Assembly: GCF_947623445.1 (NCBI RefSeq)
Contig: NC_135244.1
Coordinates: 1,612,001-1,676,000, forward strand
Length of the DNA stretch: 64,000 bases
Direction: 5' to 3'
Source: Clavelina lepadiformis
Lineage: Eukaryota > Chordata > Ascidiacea > Aplousobranchia > Clavelinidae
Made by a program: the position numbers and the translations under genes. Below the pieces are notes generated by a model. That model did not search any database. It was not told where the DNA came from and worked only from the letters and a program-made list of their open reading frames with translations. Of this stretch, positions 13,009 through 61,396 are shown in pieces (the first letter of the stretch is position 1; each line of letters opens with the position of its first letter).

Positions 13009-13510
13009 CAGTGGTTCCCAACTGCGGCTCCAAGCTAGCTTTCTTGCGGCTCTCAATGAGCCCTGAAAATCCCACAAAAAAATAAAAAATCTATTTATAA
13101 TAATTAGGGCGATTATTTTTTGACTTTTCAAAAACAGTCAAAAATTGGTCTAAATTGATAGCGTTAGGTCAAAATTGTTTACAAATTTTTCCTTTTACAT
13201 CATACAGTTACACCTTGTAGCCTACTTTATACTGTTGTGAATGGCCCATTGTCGACTTATTGTGAATCATAAACGGCCTCCTGAATCCTAAACCACAATT
13301 GCGCCTCGCTTTGACAAAGTTGTTAAAGCTCAAAGTCAATGCCAAGTTGGACATTAAATTGATTTGTGTTATTTTTCTTGTTAGTGTTGCTATTCGTTGG
13401 TACATGCTTTAAAATTTTCGTTATAATTTCTTGAGTGTTTTCATGCGGCTCCATACGTACTATGAAATTTGAAATTCTCCCCCGACACCAAAAAAGGTTG
13501 GGAACTACTG
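13009..13510. mobile_element. hAT MITE, non-autonomous
   Basis: The 8-bp duplication ATCTACAT lies on both sides (13001-13008 and 13511-13518), and the ends are CAGTGGTTCCCAAC / CAGTAGTTCCCAACC inverted. The 502-bp interior has no transposase. The ends match those of the autonomous hAT at 35797-38487 (CAGCGGTTCCCAACC), so that type of transposase could have mobilised it. Confidence 0.88.
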
Positions 13511-30869: not shown

Positions 30870-30928
30870 TCCTACATGGTCTAGTGGTTAGGATTCCTGG
30901 CTTTCACCCAGGCGGCCCGGTGTAGGAA
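30870..30928 (+). pseudogene. tRNA-Glu(TTC) pseudogene, T arm lost
   Basis: Identical to the intact tRNA-Glu at 58835-58906 except that 13 bases are missing. The T-arm region CCCGGGTTCGATTCCCGG is reduced to one CCCGG, consistent with deletion between two CCCGG direct repeats. The B box and T loop are gone, so it should be neither transcribed well nor processed. Confidence 0.9.
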
Positions 30929-31005: not shown

Positions 31006-32650
31006 AATCTCTTTTTCAAATTAACATCGAATATTCTGGATATTGAAAAATCGGGTCCTGGGTGATCATGTAGAATTGTAGATAGATAGATAAATAGATA
31101 TATACTAACACATAGATTAGAGGTAAGCTTTTGATTCTGTGAAATCGCTCCCACGTCACTGATGAAAGCGCCTATAGCCGTAACGATATAGTGAGTAGCT
31201 TGTAGCGCGATTTATTCTACTAATCTGTTTCTGTGGCTTGCATCATTGTTTTCGGTGACTGACTATCTATAGGTTGATGGAACGTTGAATTACAGGACCT
31301 GCTCTATGTTTAAAATAAGGATTAGGCACGCAAAAGTACTTGAAAGTTTTTCTTTCGACATGAAACATTAATAAGATAAAGTCTTATAATCTTAAAATTT
31401 TCGTGCACTAAACGATATTAATACTTTATTTTCGTTTTGATGTTACCCAATAAGTTGAAAGTTTTCAGTCTTACGAATTTCTTATGACAAACGATCTTTA
31501 TTTTTTAACTCCTTTTAATTTCCAAGAACTTTGTACACACAGAAGGCTGGAAAAAGGCTCGCATTGTCCTGGAATCGAAGCATAAAATACTGTACAAACT
31601 TCATATATTGTCGTATTAACTTAAACAACGATTTATGTTTACGGGACTTTGCATAAATTCACTTCAGAATATGTGATGTAGTATGATGCTGATTATTTAG
31701 TCATGTTGTAGGCCCCACACATGAAACGACTTGACCCATTTCCTCATTTCACAAGCTTCGACAATTTAAAAAAAAATTTTTTACTGTAGCTGGTTCCCAC
31801 GATTTACTTAAGATTTGAGATATGTAACACAATGTAAGCTTTTGTTACGCGTTTTGGAAATAAAAAGTTAGAATTTTGTGCAGTCATTTTACATTGGATG
31901 AGTATTGGTTGTTTTGTTAGATTTCTGACTGACACTTTTTTATGTTTCATCAATTAAAGCAAAGTATCAAAAAGAATTTTTAGCAATTAACGAATGGCTG
32001 CGCTTTTGGCGTCAAGCCCCAGAATGCACAGGAGTCAAACCAATTATGATGTTACCAGAATGTCACCTGCGGCGGTTACGCTGATTGCCGAGAGAAACGA
32101 GTTGTGTTTGGGCAATGAAGGAAACAGCGGAGACTTAGCTGTCCAACAAGACGGACGAGGGTCACCACTAAACTGCTCAGAGACAATTTTTGACTGTGTT
32201 CAAAAGGATTATATTGGTGTTTGAGCTGACCATTGATAACGCTTTGTTGCGAAGATTTAAAGCAAGACCAAGCCTAAGTGGCCAGACCTTTTCAATCAAG
32301 GACTCCACTGTTTCGAACAAGCTGCTTTCACAATTGGCAGTTGATCTTAGTTTTCGTTTGTCTATCTCTCGTTGCTTGCAGTTTGCAGTGATTTTAGTTG
32401 GCAGTTGAGTCTCGAACTATGCCTTGAAGTCCAGGACCCGATTTTGCGATCAATTGATCCTGGGTCTTGTAGGTTGTCTTATTGGCATTGGACATGTAAG
32501 AAAATTGCAATTGCTGAATGAAATCCTATTGATCGGACCATTTCCGTTTTTGGCTGAGGTTCACAAAAAAGGGCAATTAGCTTGTATTAACATGGAAAAT
32601 ACGTTGTCAAATCAATTTCCAGACGGTAGGCTTAGCCTGTCCCATTTCGT

Positions 32651-35299: not shown

Positions 35300-35796
35300 A
35301 TTAATTTGATGTCGTATTAATAATGGGTAACATTTAATTGTTTTCAACGTTCAGTTTGCTAAAATTTCCATGCAATAGAATTCCTTGAGACACTACAACA
35401 TCTGTTCTGTTAACTTTCCGTTGGATATTTTGTGAGCCAAAACTTGGTGGATGATCTTTCGTGCTTAAAAAACTTAAAACTCGGAATGCAGATTGAGTCG
35501 TATCGAAATTTACCTTGTCCTTCATAGACAGTATCACGGAATATTCTTGAAATCATGCGAGCAGGTTTTGAACTTTTCCAGCTTGGTCAATTTTTTGTTC
35601 ATTAGAATATGCTAATAACAACTGGCTTGATTGTTTCGTACCCACCGCGCTTTTGACGAAGAATAAAATGATTCATCCATCGAGTATAAATCCTAAGTGG
35701 CAATTGACGAGTCGACTACCTCCTCAACATGTAACAATCGACGAATAGAACTTATTTTTCGTTGTCCTGTATTCGCAGCTCCTACATGGTCTAGTG

Positions 35797-38487
35797 CAGC
35801 GGTTCCCAACCTTTTTGGTGACGTGACCCTTTTATAACATTTGCCAAGTTGCGGTGACCCCAAGGATAAAATTAGTTGAGTTGATCCTCCTTCACTGCAC
35901 TTTTGGAGCTAACTAGTAGGCTACTAGGCTATATATTAAATTTGACTTCTAAATAAATAAACAACACAACAAATCAACTTATCAACACAACAATTTGTTC
36001 AGTGAGAAGGCTGTGCTTGCTTCTTTTTAGCCAGATCTGAAATCCTTGGAGCAGTCTTTGCAAGAGCACAACGCAGATCATCTTCTGCATCAAGTCTGCT
36101 CCTGTATTTAGATTTGATAACCAACAAGCTTGAAAAGCCTGTTTCACAAAGGTATGTTGTTGGAAAAGGAAGAATCAGGCGCAATGCGATCTCAGACAGA
36201 ACGGGATATGACTGCAAACTCTTGATCCAAAATTTGGTAACTGACATTGAAGAAAAATCAGTTTTTGCTGCATCACTGGTAATGAGTTCAATGAACTCCT
36301 CTTGTGCATTCTCAGGAACATCTTCAACTCTGATGGTGAATGGGCTTCTAGCAAGTGCAAATGGTGTGTCAGGTAAATTAGGAAAATATCTTGAAATTTC
36401 TTCTTCAAGAATTTTGAAGTGTTCTTTGACAGAAAGTATTGTTCTATTCATTGTTTCCTGTTCAATATCATTTTCCTCAAAGAAAGCAGATAAGTTCGGC
36501 AACATGTAAATTCTATTTTCATCCAATTTTTTTTGCCAAAGTTGAAGTTTCAACTTGAATGCTCGGATCTTTTCTGACAAATCTAGGCATGTTGCATTTG
36601 GTCCTTGGAGAGACAAATTTAACTCATTTAAGATTGCAAAGATGTCAACCAAGTAAGCAATTTTGTGAAGTTGGTTTTTTTCGCCGAAAAGTGCTTCAAA
36701 CTGTGGTTTAGATTTTTGATTAAAAAATGTTTTCAATTCATCACGAAGATCAAAAACACGTTTCAAAACTTTGCCTCTGGACAACCATCTCACACTAGTG
36801 TGAAATAACAGAACATTATTGGATGCATCCAACTCACTGCAAACTTTTGAAAATAGGCGGCTGTTTGAAGCACTAGCTTTTACAAAATTCACGACACTTA
36901 CAACGCTTTTCATTGTATCTTGGAATTCTTGTGGCAAAGTCTTCGTTGCTAACACTTGTCGATGAATCATACAGTGAGTTCCGATGGCTTTCGGTGATGC
37001 ATTGATTACCAAACGTTGAAATCCAGACCTACATCCCAGCATTGCTGGAGCACCGTCTGTGCAAACACCACAAACATTTTCCCAAGGAATGCCATGATTT
37101 TGCAGAAATGATCCAACTGTGTCAAAGACATCGCGTGCAGTAGTTGTCGTTTCAAGTGGTTTGCAAAAAAGAAACTCATCTTTGAAATCACCTTCATAAA
37201 TGTACCTCACGTAAACCAGTAACTGAGAACAGTTTGCCACATCTGTTGATTCATCAAGCTGGATACTAAATATTCCAAGTGGAGCTGATTTCATTTCCTG
37301 GATTACTTGCTCCATAATATCAGCAGACATGTCGTCTATTCTTCTACTGACGGTGTTATTAGACAAGGATATTGTATTCAGTTTGTTAACATATTCAGCT
37401 CCAAGCATAACTCGAACAATGTCTTTGGTTGCTGGCAGCAGCAACTCCTCGGCAATGGTGTGAGGTTTCTTGGCTTTGGCGATTCTGAGAGCCACCAAAT
37501 ATGAAGCTTCAATGGCTGCCACATTTTGCTGTTGGTACTTGCCGCCAGAATCCAGCCTGTTTTTTTGGACACAATCAGCTTTGTTCTTAAAATACTGGAC
37601 ATCCTTGCCCGCAAAGTTTGGATGCTTAGCGTCAAAATGGCGTTTCATTTTGTTGGGCTTCATCGATTCGGCTGACATAATTGTGTTGCAAATGACACAT
37701 TGTGGCTTTTCAATTCCTGCGTCAACTATGAAAGTAAATCCATACTTCAAAAATTCCTCACAATATTTTCTTTTCCTAGGCCTAATACTTGTCTCTCGAT
37801 TCATCATGGGAAATCTGAAATTTTACAAAATAAATTTTAGTTTATGGCGCCCGTTATTCTTAAACTCTTTCCAACGGGTACTTTTTTTGCTTTTTTTTAA
37901 GTCTAGCAAATGTTATCAGTCGCTTTTGAAAGTTCTGTAGGCTAGGCTAGCTATCGTAGGCTACCTATGGTTGATGCCGGGAATTCAATAGTAAGCCTAC
38001 ACTGGCTTGCCTAGGCTATCAACTGATGCAAAAATAATAGCCTAGCTCTCAACATGCTTCCTGACTGCTCAATGTTTGAAGATTTAACTTTTTTTCTCAC
38101 AAATATCAACAAAAATCGCTACCTCAAGTCCAACTTTTGCTTAAATGCATTTCAGGAATCAGCAATTAAATTGTTATTTTCATGGTTTCATGGTATTTTC
38201 ATTCAAAGGCCTTTGTGACGTAATGAATTAACTGAATTAAATGAAACTGCCGTTAAAATCTTGCTTTCCGAGCATATTTGCCATTATTAAACGAAAATCC
38301 TGTAATGAGGCCCAGGGTGTTCTGGTTTGTCTAGTATAGTAAAATCACGATGCGCTCTGTGGTGAGCTGCCCATTGTTAAGAGTTAATTTTCTAAATTTC
38401 TAAACTTTTCAGAAGGCCTCAGGTGACCCCAGGCAAATTGTCAGGCGACCCCAGTTGGGGTCGCGACCCACAGGTTGGGAACCGCTG
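35797..38487 (-). mobile_element. hAT transposon, apparently complete
   Basis: 2691 bp with perfect 15-bp ends CAGCGGTTCCCAACC / GGTTGGGAACCGCTG and a perfect 8-bp duplication GTCTAGTG (35789-35796, 38488-38495). It contains one uninterrupted transposase frame on the minus strand. Perfect ends, duplication and frame point to a recent insertion. Confidence 0.95.
35999..37807 (-). CDS. hAT transposase, ZBED/SCAND3-like
   Basis: 602 aa in one exon. An N-terminal BED zinc finger (PQCVIC ... KRHFDAKH) spans roughly residues 30-68. The RNase H-like core follows, with IQLDESTD (first Asp) and VCTDGAPAMLG (second Asp), an alpha-helical insertion after VRWLSRGKVLKRV, and the C-terminal hATC segment YLCETGFSSLLVIKSKYRSR, whose Glu is the likely third catalytic residue. 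Length and motif order fit the ZBED5/SCAND3-like hAT transposases, also seen as host-domesticated genes. Here the intact ends show it is still part of a transposon. It cuts and pastes DNA in the nucleus. No frameshift or stop is seen. Confidence 0.93.
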   Translation of the reverse strand: MMNRETSIRPRKRKYCEEFLKYGFTFIVDAGIEKPQCVICNTIMSAESMKPNKMKRHFDAKHPNFAGKDVQYFKNKADCVQKNRLDSGGKYQQQNVAAIEASYLVALRIAKAKKPHTIAEELLLPATKDIVRVMLGAEYVNKLNTISLSNNTVSRRIDDMSADIMEQVIQEMKSAPLGIFSIQLDESTDVANCSQLLVYVRYIYEGDFKDEFLFCKPLETTTTARDVFDTVGSFLQNHGIPWENVCGVCTDGAPAMLGCRSGFQRLVINASPKAIGTHCMIHRQVLATKTLPQEFQDTMKSVVSVVNFVKASASNSRLFSKVCSELDASNNVLLFHTSVRWLSRGKVLKRVFDLRDELKTFFNQKSKPQFEALFGEKNQLHKIAYLVDIFAILNELNLSLQGPNATCLDLSEKIRAFKLKLQLWQKKLDENRIYMLPNLSAFFEENDIEQETMNRTILSVKEHFKILEEEISRYFPNLPDTPFALARSPFTIRVEDVPENAQEEFIELITSDAAKTDFSSMSVTKFWIKSLQSYPVLSEIALRLILPFPTTYLCETGFSSLLVIKSKYRSRLDAEDDLRCALAKTAPRISDLAKKKQAQPSH

Positions 38488-38556
38488 GTCTAGTGGTTAG
38501 GATTCCTGGCTTTCACCCAGGCGGCCCGGGTTCGATTCCCGGTGTAGGAACACTTA

Positions 38557-38627
38557 GCATTGGTGGTTCAGTGGTAGAATCCTCGCCTGCCACGCGGGGG
38601 GCCCGGGTTCGATTCCCGGCCAATGCA
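38557..38627 (+). tRNA. tRNA-Gly(GCC)
   Basis: 71 nt and identical to the copy at 30935-31005. Intact, though its tRNA-Glu neighbour is disrupted. Confidence 0.95.
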
Positions 38628-45540: not shown

Positions 45541-45796
45541 ATTTAAAATAAGTTGGTAAAAAAAGTAATGTTATATCAGTTTATAAAACCGTTTTTTTTT
45601 GCGATTGGTTACGTCACAAAGTTTATCTGAGCAAAAAACACGCATCTATAATTTTTGTCGACACAATTTAGAGCTAGAAATCATCGCTTCAACCTCCCAC
45701 ACCATAAATACTCTTTCACATTTCTATGTTCTCCTTAACTTTTACTGAGCACTTAAACAACTAACGCCTTGATTCGAGCAAATCCAAATCCTCTTA
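45541..45796. repeat. Module Z internal fragment before Z copy 1
   Basis: Resembles 47300-47540 (GTTATATCA.TTTATAAAAC, CACACCATAAATACTCTTTCAC, CTAACGCCTTGA). This suggests a further, mostly lost, tandem unit upstream of copy 1. Confidence 0.6.
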
Positions 45797-46012
45797 ACCA
45801 TCATCGATATACTGAAGGAGATTGACTTTTTGACTGACACAATACGTAAGTTTAAATTGTTGTCTTGCAACCTATACCACTGTTAAAAGTAGAATTCATT
45901 AAACTACCAATTGAAGCAACAAACAACGCAAACTTTGAAAATAAATAGACGAATGGTACAGAAATATTCATGGCAACACAAAATACTTGAATACTTTCTA
46001 CAAAGTTTGTTT

Positions 46013-46741
46013 CTAGAACCGAGAAAAAGTTCTTTGTGGCTGAAGTTCATTTGCTCCGTGGGCAAAATTACACGCAGGGCCATTGAAGCAGTTTCCATTG
46101 AGCAACCTAAAGTCAACGCAATGTTTTAATTAGTTGTTAAATTCAGAAGAAACATTGAACATATTCTCTTGTATCTCTTTTGATTTCAAACAACGAGTTT
46201 AACTCACCGTTCGCATATCTGTGCCTTATATCCGGGCACTGTAGGAATTGTGACTCTTTTTTCCTTTTCACCGTGAGCATAATTACAATGCGCTCCATAC
46301 GGGCAAGTACCGGTTTCCATAAAGGCCTTGCACAGTGAAGTTTTGAATTTGGGGCTGATTTCACTCCAAAGCCTGAAAATGCAAAAAGAAATTAAAAGTG
46401 ATTTTCTAACAACAATAGTTTATTAACAGATTAACAGACATGATTTGTTGAGAATTATTAAAGTAAATACTTCTCCAGAAAGATCTACCCTACGCCCTGG
46501 TAGTACATCATCCTGAAGAACTTACCATGAGCAAAGAGACATTTGGAACCAAAATGACATTTTCCATTTGATATCCAATTCCTACAGACGCGATTTTTAA
46601 ATCTTGCAAAATTCTTTTCTTCCACACCGTGATAGAAACTGCAGTTGTCCTGGTACGGACATCTCCCGAATGCGTGGAAATTGGTGCAAGGCTTTCGTTT
46701 GAAGTTGAGAACATTTAAAGTGCCGCGTAGTTGATTATTAC
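46013..46741 (-). pseudogene. Four-finger CCCH zinc-finger gene, copy 1 (frameshifted)
   Basis: Three exons, 46741-46526, 46372-46208 and 46106-46013, encode CCCH fingers CTNFHAFGRC.., CRNWISNGKC.., CKAFMETGTC.. and the final CNFAHGANEL unit. The middle exon is 165 nt, against 163 in copies 2 and 3: its start reads GCTTTGGAGTGAAATC instead of GCTTTGATGAAATC. This breaks the phase with exon 1, so fingers 3 and 4 cannot be translated with 1 and 2 unless splicing differs. Candidate upstream exon: 47207-47100 (..KFGVESIFNIYN..KLCPR). Confidence 0.65.
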
Positions 46742-48154
46742 CTAAAAGTTCACATTATTACATCATTATTCATGTTGCATATACAGTCAAGAAGTTTTTT
46801 GCTCGAATACATTTACTTATCATTCTTAGATCATAATACCACCTGTTGATGTATGTGACCATTCCGATGATATGGTTGATGGAGTGACGTCATTTTTAAA
46901 TGTTAAACTTTTTGCAGTAAAATAGCGATCACGTGGCCATGTCCTGAATAAATGTTTTTAAAAAAATTCCAAGGTAAATGGCGCGAATGAGTCGAAAATT
47001 CGGTAATTTCATTTTCAATTTGTGTGTATGGTTGGAAATAAACGTACTTCAAATATATTTGGCACTTTAAATGCATTCTAAGAAGTCATAGCCACTGACC
47101 TTGGGCACAGTTTGTTTTCCTGTACGTTATAAATATTGAATATGGATTCTACACCAAATTTTCTTATTGCTTGCGCATACTGATCGTTAATCTCTATAAC
47201 GATGAGTCTAAAAAAAATTAATAAATGATGACATTTAAAATTAACCAACACATGCGGTCACTTTCGTTAACATTTTTTCATCAAACAAACGAGCAAAATT
47301 ATGACGTAAGAAGTGATGTTATATCACTTTATAAAACTGTTTTTCGGCGATTTGTTACGTCACCAAGTTTATCTTAGCCAAGAGCTCGCAACTATAAGTT
47401 TTGATTAAACAATTTAGAGTCAAAACTTTATCGCTTCAACATCCCACACCATAGATACTCTTTCACATTTCTAGGTTCCAATTAAATTTTACTGAGCACA
47501 TATAACAACTAACGCCTTGAATCGAGCAAATCCAATTATGACATCACATTAACGATCAGGGAGACGAATTTTCTCATAACAAAGGCAACTTACTTTGTGA
47601 AGTTGATGATGATTTTAAGCTCATATACATTTTTCTTGGTAAAGAATAAATTTTCACAGAATACATTTTTTCCAACGTAAAGCATTCAGTTTGTCTGAGA
47701 TTGATCTGGCATCTACCTGGTTTATTTAGAAATTTCGTGTCTGAAAAGGTCGCACGCGCTAAAGTAAGCAAATAGTAAATTTTGCACCGATTACGATATT
47801 TAACACTTCTAAACTTTCCCTATCTTTGACTTATCATGGAGCCAGAGATAAAGCCAGTAACTTATTTAAGTTTACTTGATCCAAACTCGTCAACTTGTTT
47901 GTTCGATAATTATCACGATTAACAACGTGAGATAAATATATCACTTGAACTAGCAAATATAGATTAGTCGTTTCATGCGAAAATAACGAAACTTAGCCTT
48001 TGAGTGAAAAAGTTTTATAAAAATATCCAGAATCTCTCAGCGGAATGTGAAGATCGCGTTGAAAGCGCGTAATATGTGACAACCTGTCCTGAAACCGTTC
48101 CTTTGAAGATGTGTCATACTGATATATATTCCTACATTTTTATCTTATTATTAA

Positions 48155-48914
48155 GGTTCCATGACATTTGACCGCGGGAAATCGACCGCGAACAAACTCA
48201 CCGGGAACAGACTGACCGGAATGAAAATTGACCGGGAGGTAAATTGACCGTGCAAGTGCTGAATTATTGTGTTTAAGTTGATGGTAGTATATGATATGTA
48301 AAGTAAATATTTGTTTGTAACTATTTCCTTTGTTTTTAACAAAATTTTTTTTTATTTCAATACACATTGAAACATTTATTGAAATAAACAGAAATATTTC
48401 CGGAAATACGAGAAATACGAGTAACAACATTAAAAGAAGTTCACTGCAAAACACATATGACACTACATAATAAGGACACTAAAATTTACACAAACTGTTA
48501 TTTGACAAATAAGGAAGTTTATTGCGCAAATTGTAGGTTGTGGGCGATGCCTCTGAGAAAATCTAATATGTCACGGTTTGCAAAATCTTCAACGATTGTT
48601 TGAAGTCGCGCATCCAGATCCTTGTATTTTCTCCTTTTGGCAGGAGGCCCTACACCCTACAAGGGGCCAACAAACCCTACGAGTGGCAACCTTGACTGCA
48701 ATACACATACTAAATTGGCTGGGATTAAAGCTGATGCGCGACTAGATAGTGAATTAGAATTTTGACCTTTTGACGGCCAATTTGTCGCCGGTTATTTTGA
48801 TCGCCGGCCAATTTACGTCACGGTTAATTTGATCGCCGGCCAATTTGTTGCTGATCAGTTGACCACTACCAGTTGTCGCCGGTGAATTTGTTCACGGTCA
48901 TTTCACGTGATCCC
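48155..48914 (-). mobile_element. MULE family B element with transposase end
   Basis: 760 bp. Ends are GGTTCCATGACATTTGACCG and, inverted, GGGATCACGTGAAATGACCG, with the repeat-bearing arms of family B (CGCGAACAAACTCACCGGG, GGCCGGCGATCAAATTAACC). The right flank is TTATAGTAA (48915-48923) and the left flank TTATTAA (48148-48154), a 9-bp duplication whose left copy has lost AG. The unoccupied site TTATAGTAA is at 52981-52989 in Z copy 2. A transposase C-terminal fragment lies at 48519-48647. Confidence 0.9.
48519..48647 (-). pseudogene. MULE transposase C-terminus
   Basis: Minus-strand frame PPAKRRKYKDLDARLQTIVE..DILDFLRGIAHNLQ then stop, the typical C-terminal end of animal MULE transposases. 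It starts at an internal deletion boundary near 48648, so only about 42 residues remain. It identifies family B as MULE and corresponds to the YLRAIAHMC end in family A. Confidence 0.8.
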
Positions 48915-50430
48915 TTATAGTAAATATGATGAAAATACATTTCTCTGCTGAACAAGAAGTAAAGCAAAAATTTATTGTAGTGCGTTAATTTGTTGATTTA
49001 TTGCTATCTCCTACCAAGATTTGGGAGAAAATAAGAATAAACACCTTGTTTGTTACAACATTGCAACAAAGTACTGGCCGGTCGGTGTTTAAAAATTGTT
49101 TATAATGTAACCAAAAAATGGATCTAGAAATTTTGAACCAACTCAGGCTGTTGTTTGAGGAAATTTGAACCAGAACCAAGAGTTTATAAATCCTCAATAT
49201 TTTAAATCCTGTTTTTACAAACCCATTTTAAGATTTGTAAAAGCTTAAAATAAAATTCGATTTGACCGAGCAATTTACCAAAGGCGACCGAGCGATATAG
49301 TTTTGAAGCGTCTCTACTAGCTGACTTGGGGAACTTTGTGAAACTTAAATCGGTTTCACGGAAGAGTTTTTAATCAAAATTGCAAGAAACAAGCATTTAC
49401 AGCAGCTACCGATGAAACATTGTCTTCAATGCAGAAAATTGAAAAGGGATCACATGCCTTTGAAAAAGTGTCTTTTGAAGCATTTATTAGTTCAACGCGA
49501 CCAGATCTCTGAAGAAATCAAAGTGAACAAGCTTCAATATCATGGTCACACCGGTAATCTTCTGTGCACTGAACGATATCAATACGACCGGAAATCATTT
49601 ATTTGAAGATTTTGCTTTTCAAATCGTCTTTTAATCACTAATTTTTAGTAATTACGTCACGATACAGGCAAGATTTGGCAACTTTTAGATAGAATTTCAT
49701 CAATTTGTGCTGACACGAATAGATTCGGGATTCGTTCGGGTTAACTTTAAGATATTTGGATTAGCACGAACACGAATACTCGTTCTCTCGGCACATCCCT
49801 ACTGAATATAAATATGTTCTTCTTAAATAGAATTATCAAGCACTAAAACAAAAAATCTAATGCCCAAATTATTATTTTAACTTTTTTTCAACACGAAACG
49901 GTGGTTTATTGTTATAAAACAAAAAAAACATTTCCAAACAAAAATTTCACAAATACCATGGTTCAGTGTTTCTAAAACATTTTAATAATTGCAACTTCGA
50001 CAAATTAGGCAATGCGTAAAAACAAATCAAATGCTACATATCACAGGTAAACACAAAGACATAAAACAATTGTGAAAACACGAAATACTACTAAAATTTA
50101 CAGAATAATATCGATTAATTTTAAGTAACTTTTATTTTTGGCATTACGTTTGTTACGGTATTCATTATGATGAAATGTCAACAAAGTATAATTTAAGAAA
50201 AAAGTCCACTGTTAACCATCATCGATATACAGAAAAAGATTGACTTTTTGACTGACACAATACGTAAGTTAAAATTTTTGTCTTGCAAACTATATCATTG
50301 TTAAATCTAGAATTCATTAAACTACCAAATGAAGCAACAAACAACGCAAACTTTGAAAATAAATAGACGAATGGTACAGAAATAATCATGGCAACACAAA
50401 ATACTTAAATACTTTCAATAAAGTTTGTTT

Positions 50431-51157
50431 CTAGAATCTAGAGAGAGTTCTCTGCCGCTGAAGTTCATTTGCTCCGTGGGCAAAATTACACGCAGGGCCG
50501 ATGAAGCAGTTTCCAATGAGCCACCTAAAGTCAACGAAATGGTTTAATTAGTTTTTAAATTCAGAAGAAAACATGAACATATTCTCTTGTATCTCTTTTG
50601 ATTTCAAACAACGAGTTTAACTCACCGTTCGCATATCTGTGCCTTATATCCGGGCACTGTAGGAATTGTGACTCTTTTTTCCTTTTCACCGTGAGCATAA
50701 TTACAATGCGCTCCATATCGGCAAATACCGGTTTCCATAAAAGCCTTGCACAGTGAAGTTTTGAATTTGGGGCTGATTTCATCAAAGCCTGAGAATGCAA
50801 AAAGAAATTAAAAGTGATTTTCTAACAATAATTGTTTATTAACAGATTAACAGACATGATTTGTTGAGAATTATTAAAGTAAATACTTCTCCAGAAAGAT
50901 CTACCCTACGCCCTGGTAGTACATCATCCTGAAGAACTTACCATGAGCAAAGAGACAGTTGGAACCAAAATGACATTTTCCATTTGATATCCAATTCCTA
51001 CAGACGCGATTTTTAAATCTTGCAAAATTCTTTTCTTCCACACCGTGATAGAAACTGCAGTTGTCCTGGTACGGACATCTCCCGAATGCGTGGAAATTGA
51101 TGCAAGGCTTTCGTTTGAAGTTGAGAACATTTAAAGTGCCGCGTAGTTGATTATTAC
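50431..51157 (-). CDS. Four-finger CCCH zinc-finger protein, copy 2
   Basis: Exons 51157-50942, 50788-50626 and 50524-50431 join in phase. Fingers: C-x8-C-x5-C-x3-H in CINFHAFGRC..CSFYH, CRNWISNGKC..CLFAH and the KTSLCKAF.. unit with CNYAH, then a C-x7-C-x5-C-x3-H unit ending CNFAHGANELQRQRTLSRF and stop. Layout and spacing resemble tristetraprolin/unkempt-type RNA-binding fingers, here four in two pairs. The likely role is binding AU-rich or similar RNA; this is inferred. The 5' end is open: exon 1 starts in phase 1 and its upstream partner is not found. The conserved block at 52019-51912 (..SIFNIYN..) would not splice in phase with it. Confidence 0.6.
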
Positions 51158-51470
51158 CTAAAAGTTCACATTATTACATCATTATTCATGTTGCATATAC
51201 AGTCAAGAAGTTTTTTTGCTCGAATACATTTACTTATCATTCTTAGATCATAATACCACCTGTTGATGTATGTGACCATTCCGATGATATGGTTGATGGA
51301 GTGACGTCATTTTCAATTGTTAAACTTTTTGCAGTAAAATAGCGATCACGTGGCCATGTCCTGAATAAATGTTTTTAAAAAAATTCCAAGGTAAATGGCG
51401 CGAATGCGTCGAAAATTCGGTAATTTCATTTTCAATTTGTGTGTATGGTTGGAAATAAATGTACTTCAGA

Positions 51471-51882
51471 TGTCACGGGATTATTTTTATGCACCTGTTT
51501 TGTAGACACCACATTATACACCGTCTTTTCTTTGCATTGTGTTGTTTTTTTATGCATGTTCACGGTCTGCCGTATTTTACTTGTTTATGTTCTTTTACTT
51601 GTTCTTGTACACCTGTTTTTATCAAATCTCTTGTGACGTCTCACGTAGTTACCCCAAAGGCTTAATTAGTATCGTGTTTTACGTTCCACGTTGATTCCTT
51701 CATCGCGTGGAATTTGTTTGGTGTAGTACTGTGCTCGGCTGGGCGACGTTTGTCGGCAGTTACGTTTTGGTTTTAGAGTAAGGTGGATGTTTTTATGCCA
51801 TTAAAAGTTAACAAGGCAAAACCGGCTAAGTGACTAGCCGTTAAGGCGCGAAGATTCCTGGCTAAGGAAAATCTTGGTTACA
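51471..51882 (+). repeat. Solo LTR of the Gypsy-like family (fossil)
   Basis: 412 bp, TGTCACGGG to GGTTACA, flanked by CAGA / CAAA. Copy 1 has the uninterrupted site ACTTCAAATATATTTGG near 47050. It lies on the opposite strand to the element at 42466-45123. Confidence 0.9.
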
Positions 51883-54254
51883 CAAATATATTTGGCACTT
51901 TAAATGCATTCTAAGAAGTCATAGCCACTGACCTTGGGCACAGTTTGTTTTCCTGTACGTTATAAATATTGAATATGGATTCTACACCAAATTTTCTTAT
52001 TGCTTGCGCATACTGATCGTTAATCTCTATAACGATGAGTCTAAAAAAAATTAAAAAATGATGACATTTAAAATTAACCAACACATGCGGTCACTTTCGT
52101 TAACATTTTTTCATCAAACAAACGAGCAAAATTATGACGTAAGAAGTGATGTTATATCACTTTATAAAACTGTTTATCGGCGATTTGTTACGTCACCAAG
52201 TTTATCTTAGCCAAGAGCTCGCAACTATAAGTTTTGATTAAACTCTTTAGAGTCAAAACTTTATCGCTTCAACATCCCACACCATAGATACTCTTTCACA
52301 TTTCTAGGTTCCAATTAAATTTTACTGAGCACATATAACAACTAACGCCTTGAATCGAGCAAATCCAATTATGACATCACATTAACGATCAGGGAGACGA
52401 ATTTTGTCATAACAAAGGCAACTTACTTTGTGAAGTTGATGATGATTTTAAGCTCATATACATTTTTCTTGGTAAAGAATAAGTTTTCACAGAATACATT
52501 TTTTCCAACGTAAAGCATTCAGTTTGTCTGAGATTGATCTGGCATCTACCTGGTTTATATAGAAATTTCGTGTCTGAAAAGGTCGCACGCGCTAAAGTAA
52601 GCAAATAGTAAATTTTACACCGATTACGATATTTACCACTTCTAAACTTTCCCTATCTTTGATTTCACATGAAGCGAGAGATAAAGTCTGTAACTTATTT
52701 AATTTTACTGGATCCAAACTCGTCAACTTGTTTGTTCGATAATTATCACAATTAACAGCGTGAGATAAATATATCACCTGAGAAAGCAAATATAGATTAG
52801 TCGTTTCATGCGAATATAACGAATCTAGGCCTTTGAGTGAAAATGTTTTATAAAAATATCCAGAATCTCTCAGCGGATTTTGAAGATCGCGTTGAAAGCG
52901 CGTAATATTTGACAACCTGTCCTAAAACCGTTCCTTTGAAGATGTGTCATACTGATATATATTCCTACATTTTTATCTTATTATAGTAAATATGATGTAA
53001 ATACATTTCTTTGCTGAACAAGAAGTAAAGCAAAAATTTATTGTAATGCGTTAATTTGTTGATTTATTGCTATCTCCTACCAAGATTTGGGAGATAATAA
53101 GAATAAACACCTTGTTTGTTACAACATTGCAACAAAGTACTGGCCGGTCGGTGTTTAAAAATTGTTTATAATGTAACCAAAAAACGGATCTAGGAAATTT
53201 GAACCAGAACCAAGAGTTTATAAATCCTCAATATTTTAAATCCAGTTTTAACAAACCCATTTTAAGATTTAAAAACGCGTAAAATAGAATTGTATTTGAC
53301 CGAGCAATTTACCAAAGGCGACCGAGCGATATAGTTTTGAAGCGTCTCTACTAGCTGACTTGGGGAACTTTGTGAAACTTAAATCGGTTTCACGGAAGAG
53401 TTTTCAATCAAAATTGCAAGAAACAAGCTTTTACAGCAGCTACCGATGAAACATTGTCTTCAATGCAGAAAATTGAAAAGGGATCACATGCCTTTGAAAA
53501 AGTGTCTTTTGAAGCATTTATTAGTTCAACGCGACCAGATCTCTGAAGAAATCAAAGTGAACAAGCTTCAATATCATGGTCACGCCGGTAATCTTCTGTG
53601 CACTGAACGATATCAATACGACCGGAAATCATTTATTTGAAGATTTTGCTTTTCAAATCGTCTTTTAATCACTAATTTTTAGTAATTACGTCACGATATA
53701 CAGACAAGATTTGGCAACTTTTAGATAGAATTTCATCATTTTGTGCTGAAACGAATAGATTCGGGATTCGTTCGGGTTAACTTTAAGATATTTGGATTCG
53801 CACGAACACGAATAATCGTTCTCTTGGCACATCCCTACTGAATATAAATATGTTCTTCTTAAATAGAATTATCAAGCACTAAAACAAAAAATCTAATGGC
53901 CCAAATTATTATTTTAACTTTTATTCAACACGAAACGGTGGTTTATTGTTATAAAACAAAAAAAACATTTCCAAACAAAAATTTCACAAATACCATGGTT
54001 CAGTGTTTCTAAAACATTTTAATAATTGCAACTTCGACAAATTAGGCTAGGCAATGCGTAAAATCAAATCAAATGCTACATATCACAGGTAAACACAAAG
54101 ACATAAAACAATTGTGAAAACACGAAATGCTACTAAAATTTACAGAATAATATCGATTAATTTTAAGTAACTTTAAATTTTAACATTACGTTTGTTACGG
54201 TATTCATTATGATGAAATGTCAACAAAGTATAATCTAAAAATAAGTCCACTGTT

Positions 54255-57200
54255 AACCATCACCGATATACAGAAAAAGATTGACTTTTTGACTGACACA
54301 ATACGTAAGTTAAAATTTTTGTCTTGCAAACTATATCACTGTTAAAACTAGAATTTATTAAACTACCAAATGAAGCAAAAAACAGCGCAAACTTCGAAAA
54401 TAAATAGACGAATGGTACAGAAATAATCATGGCAACACAAAATACTTAAATACTTTCAACAAAGTTTGTTTCTAGAATCTAGAGAGAGTTCTCTGCGGCT
54501 GAAATTCATTTGCTCCGTGGGCAAAATTACACGCAGGGCCGATGAGGCAGTTTCCCATGAGCCACCTAAAGTCAACGAAATGGTTTAATTAGTTTTTAAA
54601 TTCAGAAGAAAACATGAACATATTCTCTTGTATCTCTTTTGATTTCAAACAACGAGTTTAACTCACCGTTCGCATATCTGTGCCTTATATCCGGGCACTG
54701 TAGGAATTGTGACTCTTTTTTCCTCTTCACCGTGAGCATAATTACAATGCGCTCCATATCGGCAATTACCGGTTTCCATAAAAGCCTTGCACAGTGAAGT
54801 TTTGAATTTGGGGCTGATTTCATCAAAGCCTGAGAATGCAAAAAGAAATTAAAAGTGATTTTCTAACAACAATAATTGTTTATTAACAGATTAACAGACA
54901 TGATTTGTTGAGAATTATTAAAGTAAATACTTCTTCACAAAATTCGACCTTACGTCCTGGTAGTACGTCATCTTTAAGAACTTACCATGCGCAAATAGAC
55001 ATTTGGAACCAAAATGACAGCTTCCAGTTGACATCCAGTATCGGCAGGGTCGATTTTTAAATCGAGCAAAATTCTTTTCTCCCATATCATGATAGAAATT
55101 ACATTTGTCCTGGTACGGACATCTCCCGAATGTATGGAAATTGGTGCAGGGCTTTCGTTTGTAATTCAGAATGTTTAATGGGCGGCGTTGCTCATTATTA
55201 CCTAAAATTCCACATTATGACGTCATTATTGATGTTGTAAATACAACCAAGAAATACTTTTTTGCAAATACATTTACTTATCATTCTTAGATCATAATAC
55301 CACTTCTTGATGTTTGTGACGATTCCGATGAAACTATTGCAAGAATGACGTCATTTTCAAATGGCGATCTTTCAGCTGCAAAATAGCGATCACGTGGCCA
55401 GGTCCTGAATAAATAATTTTAAAAAAATTCCAAGATCAATGACGTGATTCAAATTCGCAAAATTCAGATTCAATCGGTGTGTATGGTTGCAAATAAATGT
55501 AGTTTAAATACTTAGCACTTTAAATGCATTGTAAGAAATCATAGCAACTTACCTTGGGCATAGTTTATTTTCCTTTATGTTATAAATATTGAATATGGAT
55601 TCCACGCCAAATATTCCAATGGTTTCCGCGTATTCATCGTTATTCTCAAACGATGAGTCTAAAAAAAATTAAAAAACGACGTCATTTAAAATTAACCAAC
55701 ACATGCGGTCACTTTCGCTAATATTTTTTCATCAAACAAACGAGCAAATTTATAACGTAATAAGTGATGTTATATCACTTTATAAAACTGTTTTTCGAAG
55801 ATTTGCTACGTCACCAAATTTATCTGAGCCAAGAGCTCGCAACTATAAGTTTTGATTAAACTCTTTAGAGTCAAAACTTCATCGCTTCAACATCCCACAC
55901 CATAAATACTGTTTTAACTTTCTAGGTTCCAGTTAACTTTTACTGAGCACTTATAACAACTAACGCCTTGAATCGAGCAAAACCAATCATGACATTACAT
56001 TGACGATCAGAAAGACGAATGTTCTCATAACAAAGGCAACTTACTTTGAGAAGTTGATGATGATTTTAAGCTCATATACATTTTTCGTGGTAAAGAATAA
56101 GTTTTCACAGAATAAAGTTCTTCCAACGTAAAGCATTCAGTTTGTCTGAGATTGATCTGGCATCTACCTGGTTTATATAGAAATTTCTCGTCTGATAAGG
56201 TCGCACGCGCTAAAGTAAGCAAATAGTAAATTTTACACCGATTACGATATTTACCACTTCTAAACTTTCGCTATCTTTGACTTATCATGGAGCCAGAGAT
56301 AAAGCCAATAACTTATTTAATTTTACTGGATCCAAACTCGTCAACTTGTTTGTTCGATAATTATCACGATTAACAGCATGAGATAGATATATCGCTTGAG
56401 CTAGCAAATATAGATTAGTCCTTTCATGCGAAAACAACTGTTCTTAACATTTAAACAAAAGTTATATAAAAATATTGCGAAATTCTCATCGGAATTTTGA
56501 AGATCGCGTTGAAAGCACGTATTTTTGACAACCTGACCTAAAATGTTTATTTGAAGTTGTCTCAAACTGATTTATATTGCTACATTTTTTATCTTATTAT
56601 AGTACAGTAAGTGTTATATACTTTTATTAATATTATAGTACAGATCCTATTATAGTAAATATGACGAAAATACATTTCCCCACTGAACAAAAAATAAAGC
56701 GAAGAGTTATTGTAGTGGTTTATTTTGCAGAATTGCTGCAGATTCGTGCCATTATTTAGCGAGATAAAAAAAATTAACACGCGGTTTATTACAACATTGT
56801 ACCATAGTTCTGGCCGGTCATTGTTTAAAAATGTTTTACAAATTACCCCAAAAATTGGATGTAGAAATTTTCCTTGAACTCAGGCCAATGTTTGAGGAAA
56901 TTTGACCCGGAACCAAAAGGTTATAAATCTTCAATGTTTAAACTCAAATTCACTCCGAAACAAAACTGAAGCGAAGTTTGACCAATCCTTTAATGTTGTA
57001 TCCTTGACAAAGTATTTTAACATATCACAGCAGTAAGCACACTTCAAGATTTGTAAATAAAATAAAAATATATTTGACCGAGCAAAACATTTTTAAAGCG
57101 GATCTACTAGATGATTTGGGAAACTTTGTGAAAATTAAACCGGTCTCACGGACGATTTTTTAATTAAAATTGCAAGAAACCACCATTCACAGCAGCTACC

Positions 57201-57650
57201 GATCAAGCATTATCTTCAATACAGCAGATTGAAAACGATTCACATGTCTTTGAAAAAGTTTCGTTTGAAGCACTTATTAGTTAAAAGCGACCAGATCTCT
57301 AAAGAAATCAAAGTGAACAAGCTTCAATATCATAGTCACACCGGTAATCGTCTGTGCGTTGAACGATATTAATACGATAAAAGTCAGCTGACATTTTATT
57401 TGCACTTTGATGTTGTCCAATAAGTTGAAACTTTTCAGTTCCCTGAATTTCTTCAGACAAACGACATCTTACGTATAAAAGGCCGCGGAGTTTCCTTGAA
57501 GTTCATTCTACTTTGGTCAGTTTCGCCAAATTGTTCTTCTTGTTCATACGTTTTCATTTCAACTCGTCGTTTGATGAGGACGCAGGTGTTGAATTTAACA
57601 AATATTAAACTTTTTAACGTGCAGATTCTAAACCTTTCTTGTATATCTTT
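54255..57650. repeat. Module Z tandem copy 3
   Basis: Same order as copies 1 and 2 but visibly more diverged, with neither the MULE nor the LTR. A duplicated TTATAGTA stretch occurs at 56595-56655. Confidence 0.8.
54472..55201 (-). CDS. Four-finger CCCH zinc-finger protein, copy 3
   Basis: Exons 55201-54986, 54829-54667 and 54565-54472 join in phase as in copy 2. Exon 1 encodes NILNYKRKPCTNFHTFGRC.. and CRYWMSTGSCHFGSKCLFAH. Substitutions against copy 2 mostly keep the finger cysteines and histidines, which suggests selection. A possible upstream exon at 55658-55553 (..DEYAETIGIFGVESIFNIYN..) is 2 nt shorter than in copy 1. The start codon is not identified. Confidence 0.6.
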
Positions 57651-58834: not shown

Positions 58835-58906
58835 TCCTACATGGTCTAGTGGTTAGGATTCCTGGCTTTCACCCAGGCGGCCCGGGTTCGATTCCCGGTG
58901 TAGGAA
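58835..58906 (+). tRNA. tRNA-Glu(TTC)
   Basis: 72 nt with acceptor TCCTACA / TGTAGGA, discriminator A, A box TGGTCTAGTGG, anticodon loop CTTTCAC, and B box GGTTCGATTCC. The only intact tRNA-Glu of the three. A TATA-like AGTATAAATT lies about 95 bases upstream, shared by all module T copies. Confidence 0.96.
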
Positions 58907-58912
58907 CAGTTA

Positions 58913-59053: not shown

Positions 59054-61396
59054 CAGGGGTCGGCAACCTTTTGCTAGTCACGGGCCAAATGTCGAGTGTA
59101 CAACTCTTTGGCGGGCCGGAATTTTCATTAATACTATAATTCACACTCACTTGAGTATATTACACTACATTGCTGCAATCTCAATCATACCAATCACAAA
59201 AAGAACAAAATTTATGTATTTACACTTCAACAACACAGCATTAATGTGACACTTGATGCTGCTTGCTTTGTTTGCTTTGCTTTGCTTTGTTTTTCAAAAT
59301 CTGGTGACAAGTCAGATGAAGCAAGAACCAGAACATTTTCTAAATGGGCGTCGGAAATTCGGGATCTTAGCTTGCTCTTCGTGAATTTCGTTGTTGAAAA
59401 CATTTGTTCACATGTGTACGTGCTACCAAACATCGATGCCATTTCTTTTGCATTGTTGGTCAAGCTAGGATAAACACCACTTTCAAGAAGGTACTTTTTG
59501 TAAAAGTCAAGCAGCGATATGCCCTTTGTATGAAATTTTGCCTTCAATTCGTCACTGCATTGCATTTCAATAAGGTCCATTTGAAATTTTTCGGGAATGG
59601 TATTGGCGTCCACATCAAACGGAGTACTGAATAGCCTGAATTTATTTTGTAGAGAACGAATGTCGGCAAAGCGTGAGGAAAATTCAGTAATTAAATTTCG
59701 TATCACAGTGACAAATGTAGTGTTGCTACTAGGTTTGCTTTCCTCCAGTATAGGAAAGTGAACATAATTTTCTTTGTCCAGTTGACATTCCCAGAGTCGC
59801 AGTTTTGTTTCAAATGCGAATATGTGCTTCCACATCTCATGTATCAGTTGTTTTTTCCCCTGAAGTTGCAAATTCAATTTGTTCAGATGTGACGTTAAAT
59901 CTACTAAGAAAGCAAGATTAGATACCCATTCTGGATTACGAAATTCTGTGGCGTTAATGCTTTTATTTTCAAGGAACGTTGCTATTTCATTTCTCAGCTC
60001 ATACACTCGTGCAAGCATAGCTCCTCGACTTAGCCAGCGAACTTCGCAGAAACACAAGGCATCACCATATTGATTCTCTGCTTCTGGTAACATCTGGCGA
60101 AACTGTCGTTGATTCCGTTTGTGAGACAAAATCATATTCACAGCTTTCACCACTGTGTCCATAACACTCTTCAAGTTTGTTGTCTTGGCGCACAACGCCT
60201 CCTGGTGAATTAAACAGTGTACCTTTGAGATTTTGTCATTGCGTCCGAGATCTTCCAAGTGTTTTTGAAGCAGAGCAACGGCACCTTTATTTTTACCGAT
60301 CATTGCAGGAGCTCCGTCGGTTGTTACCGACACCAATTTTGACAGATCGAGGTTCAAACTGTTAGTGCACTGCAACAGTGCCTTCAGAATATCTGCTCCT
60401 GTTGTAGTGCCCTTCATAGGAACTAACTCAACGAAATCTTCAAAAATATCAAAATTTGAGCTGACTCCACGAACGAATACCGCAAGCTGAGCTGTGTCCG
60501 TTGTATCAGTGCTCTCGTCAATAGCAATCGAAAAGTATTGCAAATTTTTTAGACAATCTTGTTGGCGAGTTTTTACATCCTGTGACATTTCTTCGATTCG
60601 TCGGGTGACAGTTCTTGCAGAAAGGCTAACATCGGAGAATAATTTTTTTTTCTCCGGGCATATGACTTCGACAACGGCCATCAAACAGTCTTTCACGTAA
60701 TCACCCTCAGTGAAAGGTTTCATGTTTTTTGCAATTACTTTGGCGACCTCATAGCTTGCCTGAGTGTTTTTTTCTGATTCAGTGTTTTGCTTTTGAAATA
60801 TACTTTACTGATTTTCTAAGCAGAGTTTAAGACGGTTAATTTTGTCTTTTCTCGTTTGGCCTCTGTACTCCGAAAACTTCGAATGCTTTGTCTCATAATG
60901 ACGCTTAATATTAAATTCCTTGTTTACAGAAACAGACTGATTGCAAATTAAGCACGTGGGTTTACCAAAGTGTAGTATGGAAAAGTACTTTTCCGTCCAT
61001 TCTTCATTAAAACCTCGGCACTCATCATCAACCTTTCGACGTTTCGCTAACATCCTAAATTCCTAAATTATAACAAACTTTAGCTTAAAGCTCGTGTGCG
61101 TCTCTCTTTGTATCTATAACGACTAGTCTAGTCTACTCTACAGACAATCTCGTACTTATTACAAGATACTAGTCTACCGCCTTCTCACCAGATTTATGGC
61201 GTAACAATAGACTAGTACGACGTACTTATGGCGTAACAATACCACAATTTTTTCAAACACTGCTAACACTGCAGTTTGAAACTCAGTAAGACACGGCGGG
61301 CCGTATTCTTGTGATAACTAATTAATATGTCTCGGGCCGGACGATTTCGCATGGCGGGCCGGATCCGGCCCGCGGGCAGGAGGTTGCCGACCCCTG
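59054..61396 (-). mobile_element. hAT transposon, near-complete
   Basis: 2343 bp with ends CAGGGGTCGGCAACC / GGTTGCCGACCCCTG, perfect over 15 bp, and an 8-bp duplication ATGTAGAT (59046-59053, 61397-61404). It belongs to a different hAT family from 35797-38487, with different ends and a transposase of the GTF2IRD2/EPM2AIP1 type. Confidence 0.94.
59227..61053 (-). pseudogene. hAT transposase with one in-frame stop
   Basis: The frame runs from 61053 to 59227 (about 607 residues) with a single TAA at 60805-60807 after ..RLKLCLENQ; the frame resumes at once with SIFQKQNTESEK. An N-terminal BED-type finger (PTCLIC ... KRHYETKH) comes first. The core has IAIDESTDTT and TTDGAPAMIGKNKG, then CEVRWLSRGAML, and the C-terminal segment TYTCEQMFSTTKFTKSKLR. 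It is closest to GTF2IRD2-like hAT transposases. Otherwise intact, so recently active, or read through or edited. Confidence 0.9.

Follow-up and report, generated by a model that had tools for sequence, protein, structure and literature searches.

A young hAT transposon splits a tRNA-Glu gene of Clavelina lepadiformis, leaving a complete A box at one junction, and sister cassettes carry probable traces of hAT traffic

What becomes of a tRNA gene when a DNA transposon enters its internal promoter, and has the same happened in neighboring copies of that gene? The question is raised by a 64-kb stretch of the Clavelina lepadiformis genome (the window; C5:1612001-1676000), in which a tRNA-Glu(TTC) gene is split by a complete hAT element. 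Comparison with a sister gene at 58835 places 17 bp before the insertion: a 5′ fragment at 35780-35796 (+) made up of the acceptor strand, the two next bases, and the first copy of the target site duplication (TSD). The TSD, GTCTAGTG, occupies 35789-35796 and again 38488-38495; it is 8 bp long and lies within the A box/D arm, where an earlier reading of the letters alone (the sequence-only reading) had put it. The rest of the gene, with its B box, is found at 38488-38549 (+), and a tRNA call at 38557-38627 (+) identifies its partner, tRNA-Gly(GCC). We refer to this Glu-Gly pair as unit B. We conclude that an hAT element has indeed inserted recently into this tRNA gene, an event of a known kind. 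Taken together with an A box rebuilt at one junction and the probable coming and going of hAT elements in sister cassettes, it forms a joint reading that we consider highly probable. Genome-wide counts given below cover 209,060,895 bases in 95 contigs; the assembly, kaClaLepa1.1, is published as 210.1 Mb in 102 scaffolds (PMC10884593).

The element is 2,691 bp long (35797-38487), as delimited by its genome copies, its terminal inverted repeats (TIRs) and the TSD, and we call it Buster-type by its target sites. It begins with CAGCGGTTCCCAACC (left TIR, 35797-35811, +) and ends with GGTTGGGAACCGCTG (right TIR, 38473-38487, −), an inverted copy that is perfect over 15 bp. A CAG terminus is typical of hAT elements. 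The minus strand carries an open reading frame for a 602-aa transposase (35999-37807), in which the hAT dimerization region, PF05699, scores 23.9 bits against a cutoff of 21.4; at the N terminus, zf-C2H2_12 reaches 19.4 bits, under its cutoff of 27.3. The perfect ends and open transposase frame described in the sequence-only reading are thus borne out. The protein also contains LDESTD (residue 184), CTDGAPAM (249), RWLSRG (340), and CETGFS (554), which we take to be candidate catalytic motifs of the DDE/RNase H fold. Its AlphaFold model, with a mean pLDDT of 34.8, is too poor to be used, and a PDB sequence search with it returned no match at E 0.001 and none at E 10. The element is possibly still competent.

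The element is present elsewhere in the genome, a point on which the sequence-only reading had turned. Whole-element search, the counts of which are lower bounds, recovered at least four full copies, that of the window included, and at least two without one end, all at about 100% identity. The full copies differ from one another by 0 to 2 substitutions over 2.7 kb, which upholds the earlier description of the insertion as recent, and all four encode the same 602-aa frame and share the same 15-bp ends of the CAG...CTG kind. Nine base pairs absent from the window copy are present in the three other full copies and in the one-ended copy L009; the other one-ended copy, L010, also lacks them. Each full copy is flanked by a TSD of its own (GTCTAGTG, TCGTAAGT, ATTTAAGG, and GCCTAGTT) with eight of eight bases matching. 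The one-ended copies keep seven of the eight (CCTTAGAC/CCTTAGAG and CTTTAGGG/GTTTAGGG), the latter match sitting two bases past the break. In both L009 and L010, one TIR is gone and the seven TSD bases adjoin the break, L010 having two extra bases there. Fifteen further loci (L011 to L025) have up to about 200 bp in common with the part of the element that precedes the frame, at 79 to 88% identity, and in most of them both termini are of the CAGTGGTTTTCAA type (2 mismatches allowed); these loci look like nonautonomous relatives. Within the window, a 502-bp sequence at 13009-13510 with hAT-type ends and the TSD ATCTACAT is probably a nonautonomous element. The possibility that the split gene is an assembly artifact seems to us extremely remote, given that the TSD is exact, that other copies have TSDs of their own, and that the underlying assembly is a HiFi assembly with a reported QV of 67.4 (PMC10884593).

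The sequence-only reading held that the element had inserted inside the pol III internal promoter. By position this is correct, but the right junction rebuilds an A box. The A-box consensus used for scoring was TRGYNNARNGG. The sequence TGGTCTAGTGG at 38486-38496 (+), composed of the TG of the element, the 8-bp TSD, and a G, matches it at 11 of 11 positions, the same score as the intact gene, under a loose consensus that has 16 matches on the two strands of the window. The B box lies 43 bp from this A box, the same spacing as in the intact gene. With CTG at the end of the element and a TSD that spans A-box positions 3 to 10, the TG of the element stands in for the tRNA's own TG, and a whole A box and B box are found beside the right end. 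At the left junction, the A box in register matches at 10 of 11 positions; an out-of-register match there reaches 11 of 11 and has no B box. The full match at the right junction means that the insertion has parted the acceptor strand from the gene without destroying the internal promoter. Pol III might accordingly still transcribe the 3′ part of tRNA-Glu, with a start within the end of the element, but such a transcript could not be expected to yield a normal tRNA.

Among the 40 of 235 candidates scored for the Glu-Gly pair, four map to C5 in the stretch from 1.64 to 1.70 Mb; we refer to them as units A to D. Unit C, at 58835-58907 (+), is an intact tRNA-Glu(TTC) gene by ARAGORN. The gene in unit D starts at C5:1702056, beyond the window and about 54 kb away from the insertion. 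The sequence-only reading took the copies at 30870 and 58835 as uninterrupted sisters; this is right for 58835, but the copy at 30870 (unit A, 30870-30927, +; alignment and ARAGORN) is missing 13 bp (GTTCGATTCCCGG) between CCCGG repeats in its T arm/B box, which rules it out as an intact sister. ARAGORN calls a tRNA-Gly in all four units and no tRNA-Glu in units A, B, and D; three of the four tRNA-Glu genes are therefore broken, in three ways. RNAfold of the tRNA-Glu variants gave no cloverleaf even for the intact gene. Elsewhere in the window, direct repeats with a spacing of 3.6 to 4.8 kb extend over 45780-57250, and on C4 (19330644-19415525) Glu-Gly tRNA pairs form a large tandem array with a spacing of about 419 bp or multiples of it; the tRNA-Gly of these pairs has a degenerate look.

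The sister unit that bears most directly on the insertion is unit D. Its tRNA-Glu reads TCCTACATG GTCTAGTC A CTCTAGTG GTTAGG and otherwise equals unit C through the tRNA-Glu. At the site occupied in unit B it thus has two copies of the TSD with one A between them, and the two bases that face each other across this A, one at the end of the first copy and one at the start of the second, are complemented. In hAT excision footprints, the end bases are typically complemented. The pattern GGTCTAGN{1,24}TAGTGGTTAGGATTC has a single genomic match, in a count that covers only genes with GTTAGGATTC, and the reversed-pattern control has none. Excision footprints of TcBuster, a Buster-type hAT, have small complementary insertions that were put down to hairpins and end-joining (PMC3499496). 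We consider that an hAT at the same tRNA-Glu site in unit D has probably come, gone, and left a hairpin-type footprint. The earlier suggestion that the insertion may be reversible, with excision leaving a repeat in the D arm, thereby gains support that is indirect, since it comes from what a sister gene carries at that position.

A second complete hAT provides a comparable case in the same cassettes. This element (59054-61396) is 2,343 bp long, has the TSD ATGTAGAT on both sides, and lies 70 bp 3′ of the tRNA-Gly of unit C. Its 498-aa frame (59227-60723, −) encodes a protein with 33% identity to that of the first element, and it has at least nine matches longer than 1.8 kb elsewhere, at 88 to 98% identity (among the 40 of 673 candidates scored). 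At the site paralogous to its TSD, two sister units carry ATGTAGAA-TTGTAGAT: in units A (31068-31083, found by scan) and D the sequence there is ATGTAGAATTGTAGAT, of excision type, with both end bases complemented, and in unit B it is undoubled. An hAT 3′ of tRNA-Gly has probably come and gone in units A and D as well, leaving hairpin-type footprints. Read across both sites, the sequences suggest that hAT elements probably also came and went in the sister cassettes, with the scars being read from paralogues and not from alleles.

How often would such sequences be expected to occur without a transposon? A scan for repeats with both end bases complemented, devised after the unit D sequence had been seen, gave one TA-centered match in the window, where simulations averaged 0.2 with a maximum of 2 in 40, and two in the unit D locus (3.1 kb). 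In all three cases, a sister unit has, at that place, a complete hAT with that TSD. Two further matches of the complemented form, in L012 and L017, were found in 212 kb of loci, overlaps included. In the window, the complemented form accounts for 1 of 23 matches centered on TA and 7 of 137 centered on the 15 other dinucleotides; the form alone is therefore not diagnostic, and we place weight on the coincidence of place and not on frequency. TA-centered short repeats of all kinds are also in excess, with 23 in the window against a simulated mean of 3.2 (maximum 7 in 40), so local duplications of other origin are common. Both this excess and the complemented matches at non-TA centers could favor a different origin for the unit D sequence, namely, that nearby sequence was duplicated from a template while a break was repaired, with no transposon involved. 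However, the repeat in unit D matches the TSD of unit B base for base, and the same form recurs at the site of the second hAT in units A and D, and we regard templated duplication as improbable.

If hAT excision left the sequence in unit D, do units B and D record one insertion or two? The flanks of the two units are 84 to 86% identical beside the genes and 88% identical over a 624-bp piece. Because the flanks have diverged this far and the copies of the element are nearly identical, an insertion that predates the split of B and D is unlikely. An element older than that split should have lost its reading frame, and recent daughter copies would be expected to share the damage. Two accounts are left: a separate insertion in unit D, or gene conversion and a later excision. 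Under the latter, one insertion spread between units by conversion that began in the identical tRNA block and was then excised in unit D only. This fits with a tRNA block that is 99 to 100% identical among units with flanks that are not, and with the presence of four units within 60 kb of one chromosome. Yet the tRNA block of cassettes on C1 is also 99% identical, so selection can explain the identity, and the grouping of B with D has the fewest informative columns (A+B 11/21, A+D 7/21, B+D 3/21), many of the columns being where unit C is misaligned. We consider spread by gene conversion rather unlikely.

Independent insertions in B and D would raise the question of how the site was chosen. 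TA occupies TSD positions 4 and 5 at all six insertion sites of the element family. Genome-wide, there are 651 copies of the TIR core GGTTGGGAACCNCTG, and NNNTA follows 556 of them, compared with a frequency of 7% for TA in the window. When the first 100 of these 556 targets are considered, nTC precedes TA in 27 (4.8% of window TA sites), and six are GTCTA half-sites (0.9%). Given this excess, GTCTAGTG is an ordinary good target, and the tRNA-Glu site fits an nnnTAnnn preference. A boxes that read TCTAGTGGTNAGGATTC number 161 in the genome, or about 0.06% of an estimated 271,000 TCTAG sites, a figure scaled up from the window. One insertion among 161 A boxes is a little surprising, but the case was selected for being striking. 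ATGG precedes 152 of the 161, and the other 9 include units B and D, C4:19384058, and L040 (C6:3387581); the last was ruled out as an interrupted gene, as it differs by no more than a base change immediately ahead of the A box. The sequence-only reading had raised a preference for tRNA genes as something to look for, and the data speak against one: in a test that detects tRNAs with an exact GGTTCGA 25 to 55 bp away and no others, a single one of the 651 TIR-core ends, that of the window itself, lies upstream of such a motif, and on this basis we reject the idea that ends of this TIR class target tRNA genes in general. ARAGORN likewise finds a tRNA in one of six family loci (about 1.5 kb on each side), again that of the window.

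These data bear on the idea that the A boxes of tRNA-Glu genes are a recurrent hAT landing site, through sequence match and open pol III chromatin, and that B and D were hit independently. The 8 bp shared exactly by the insertion in B and the footprint in D, the contrast between diverged flanks and nearly identical element copies, and the excess of GTCTA and nTCTA targets all speak for it, whereas the lone TIR-core end near GGTTCGA and the five of six family loci with no ARAGORN tRNA speak against it; moreover, two events are few, and the footprint in D does not name the element behind it. We hold this explanation tentatively, at somewhat less than an even chance. A stronger version, which we think unlikely, is that the tRNA-Glu A box acts as a self-healing landing pad for Buster-type elements: the TCTAG core would be preferred, TSD and CTG would regenerate the A box, pol III would keep the site open, and elements would repeatedly enter and leave sister genes, leaving D-arm variants. 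For the insertion in unit B itself, our preferred account is that a young hAT element of Buster type entered the D arm/A box of one tRNA-Glu gene, which belongs to a small family of duplicated Glu-Gly cassettes, because GTCTAGTG suits the nnnTAnnn preference well and the gene is redundant.

Related systems share some of these features. TcBuster has the same 8-bp nnnTAnnn TSD and footprints with small complementary insertions (PMC3499496); the Clavelina element differs from it in species and sequence, and its Buster label comes from target sites. Dada elements are DNA transposons with a DDE transposase that also lie inside tRNA genes (PMC3706591). However, their TSDs are 6 to 7 bp, compared with 8 bp in the Clavelina family, and Dada tRNA families keep to particular tRNA genes, whereas one of six Clavelina insertions is in a tRNA gene. 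Ty1 and other pol III-directed retrotransposons are likewise tied to tRNA genes; these retroelements integrate near pol III genes, in contrast to a cut-and-paste element within the gene. Among the matches listed in a search of the open-access literature, no paper title reports an hAT inside a tRNA gene. The available portions of PMC8721813 and PMC7337890 hold nothing bearing on an hAT within a tRNA gene, and a text search of PMC5911963 found no mention of DNA transposon, hAT, or Dada.

The mechanism of hAT insertion is already known; the interesting parts here are the pairs of occupied site and scar and the junction that preserves a promoter. A promoter can stay whole although an insertion falls, by position, within it, and if pol III transcribes the right junction, the locus would be a natural and directly testable source of chimeric transposon-tRNA RNA. 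In the tRNA cassettes of this one genome, an occupied hAT site, an empty site, and an excision-type scar can be read side by side, and they show a DNA transposon able to break tRNA genes one by one.
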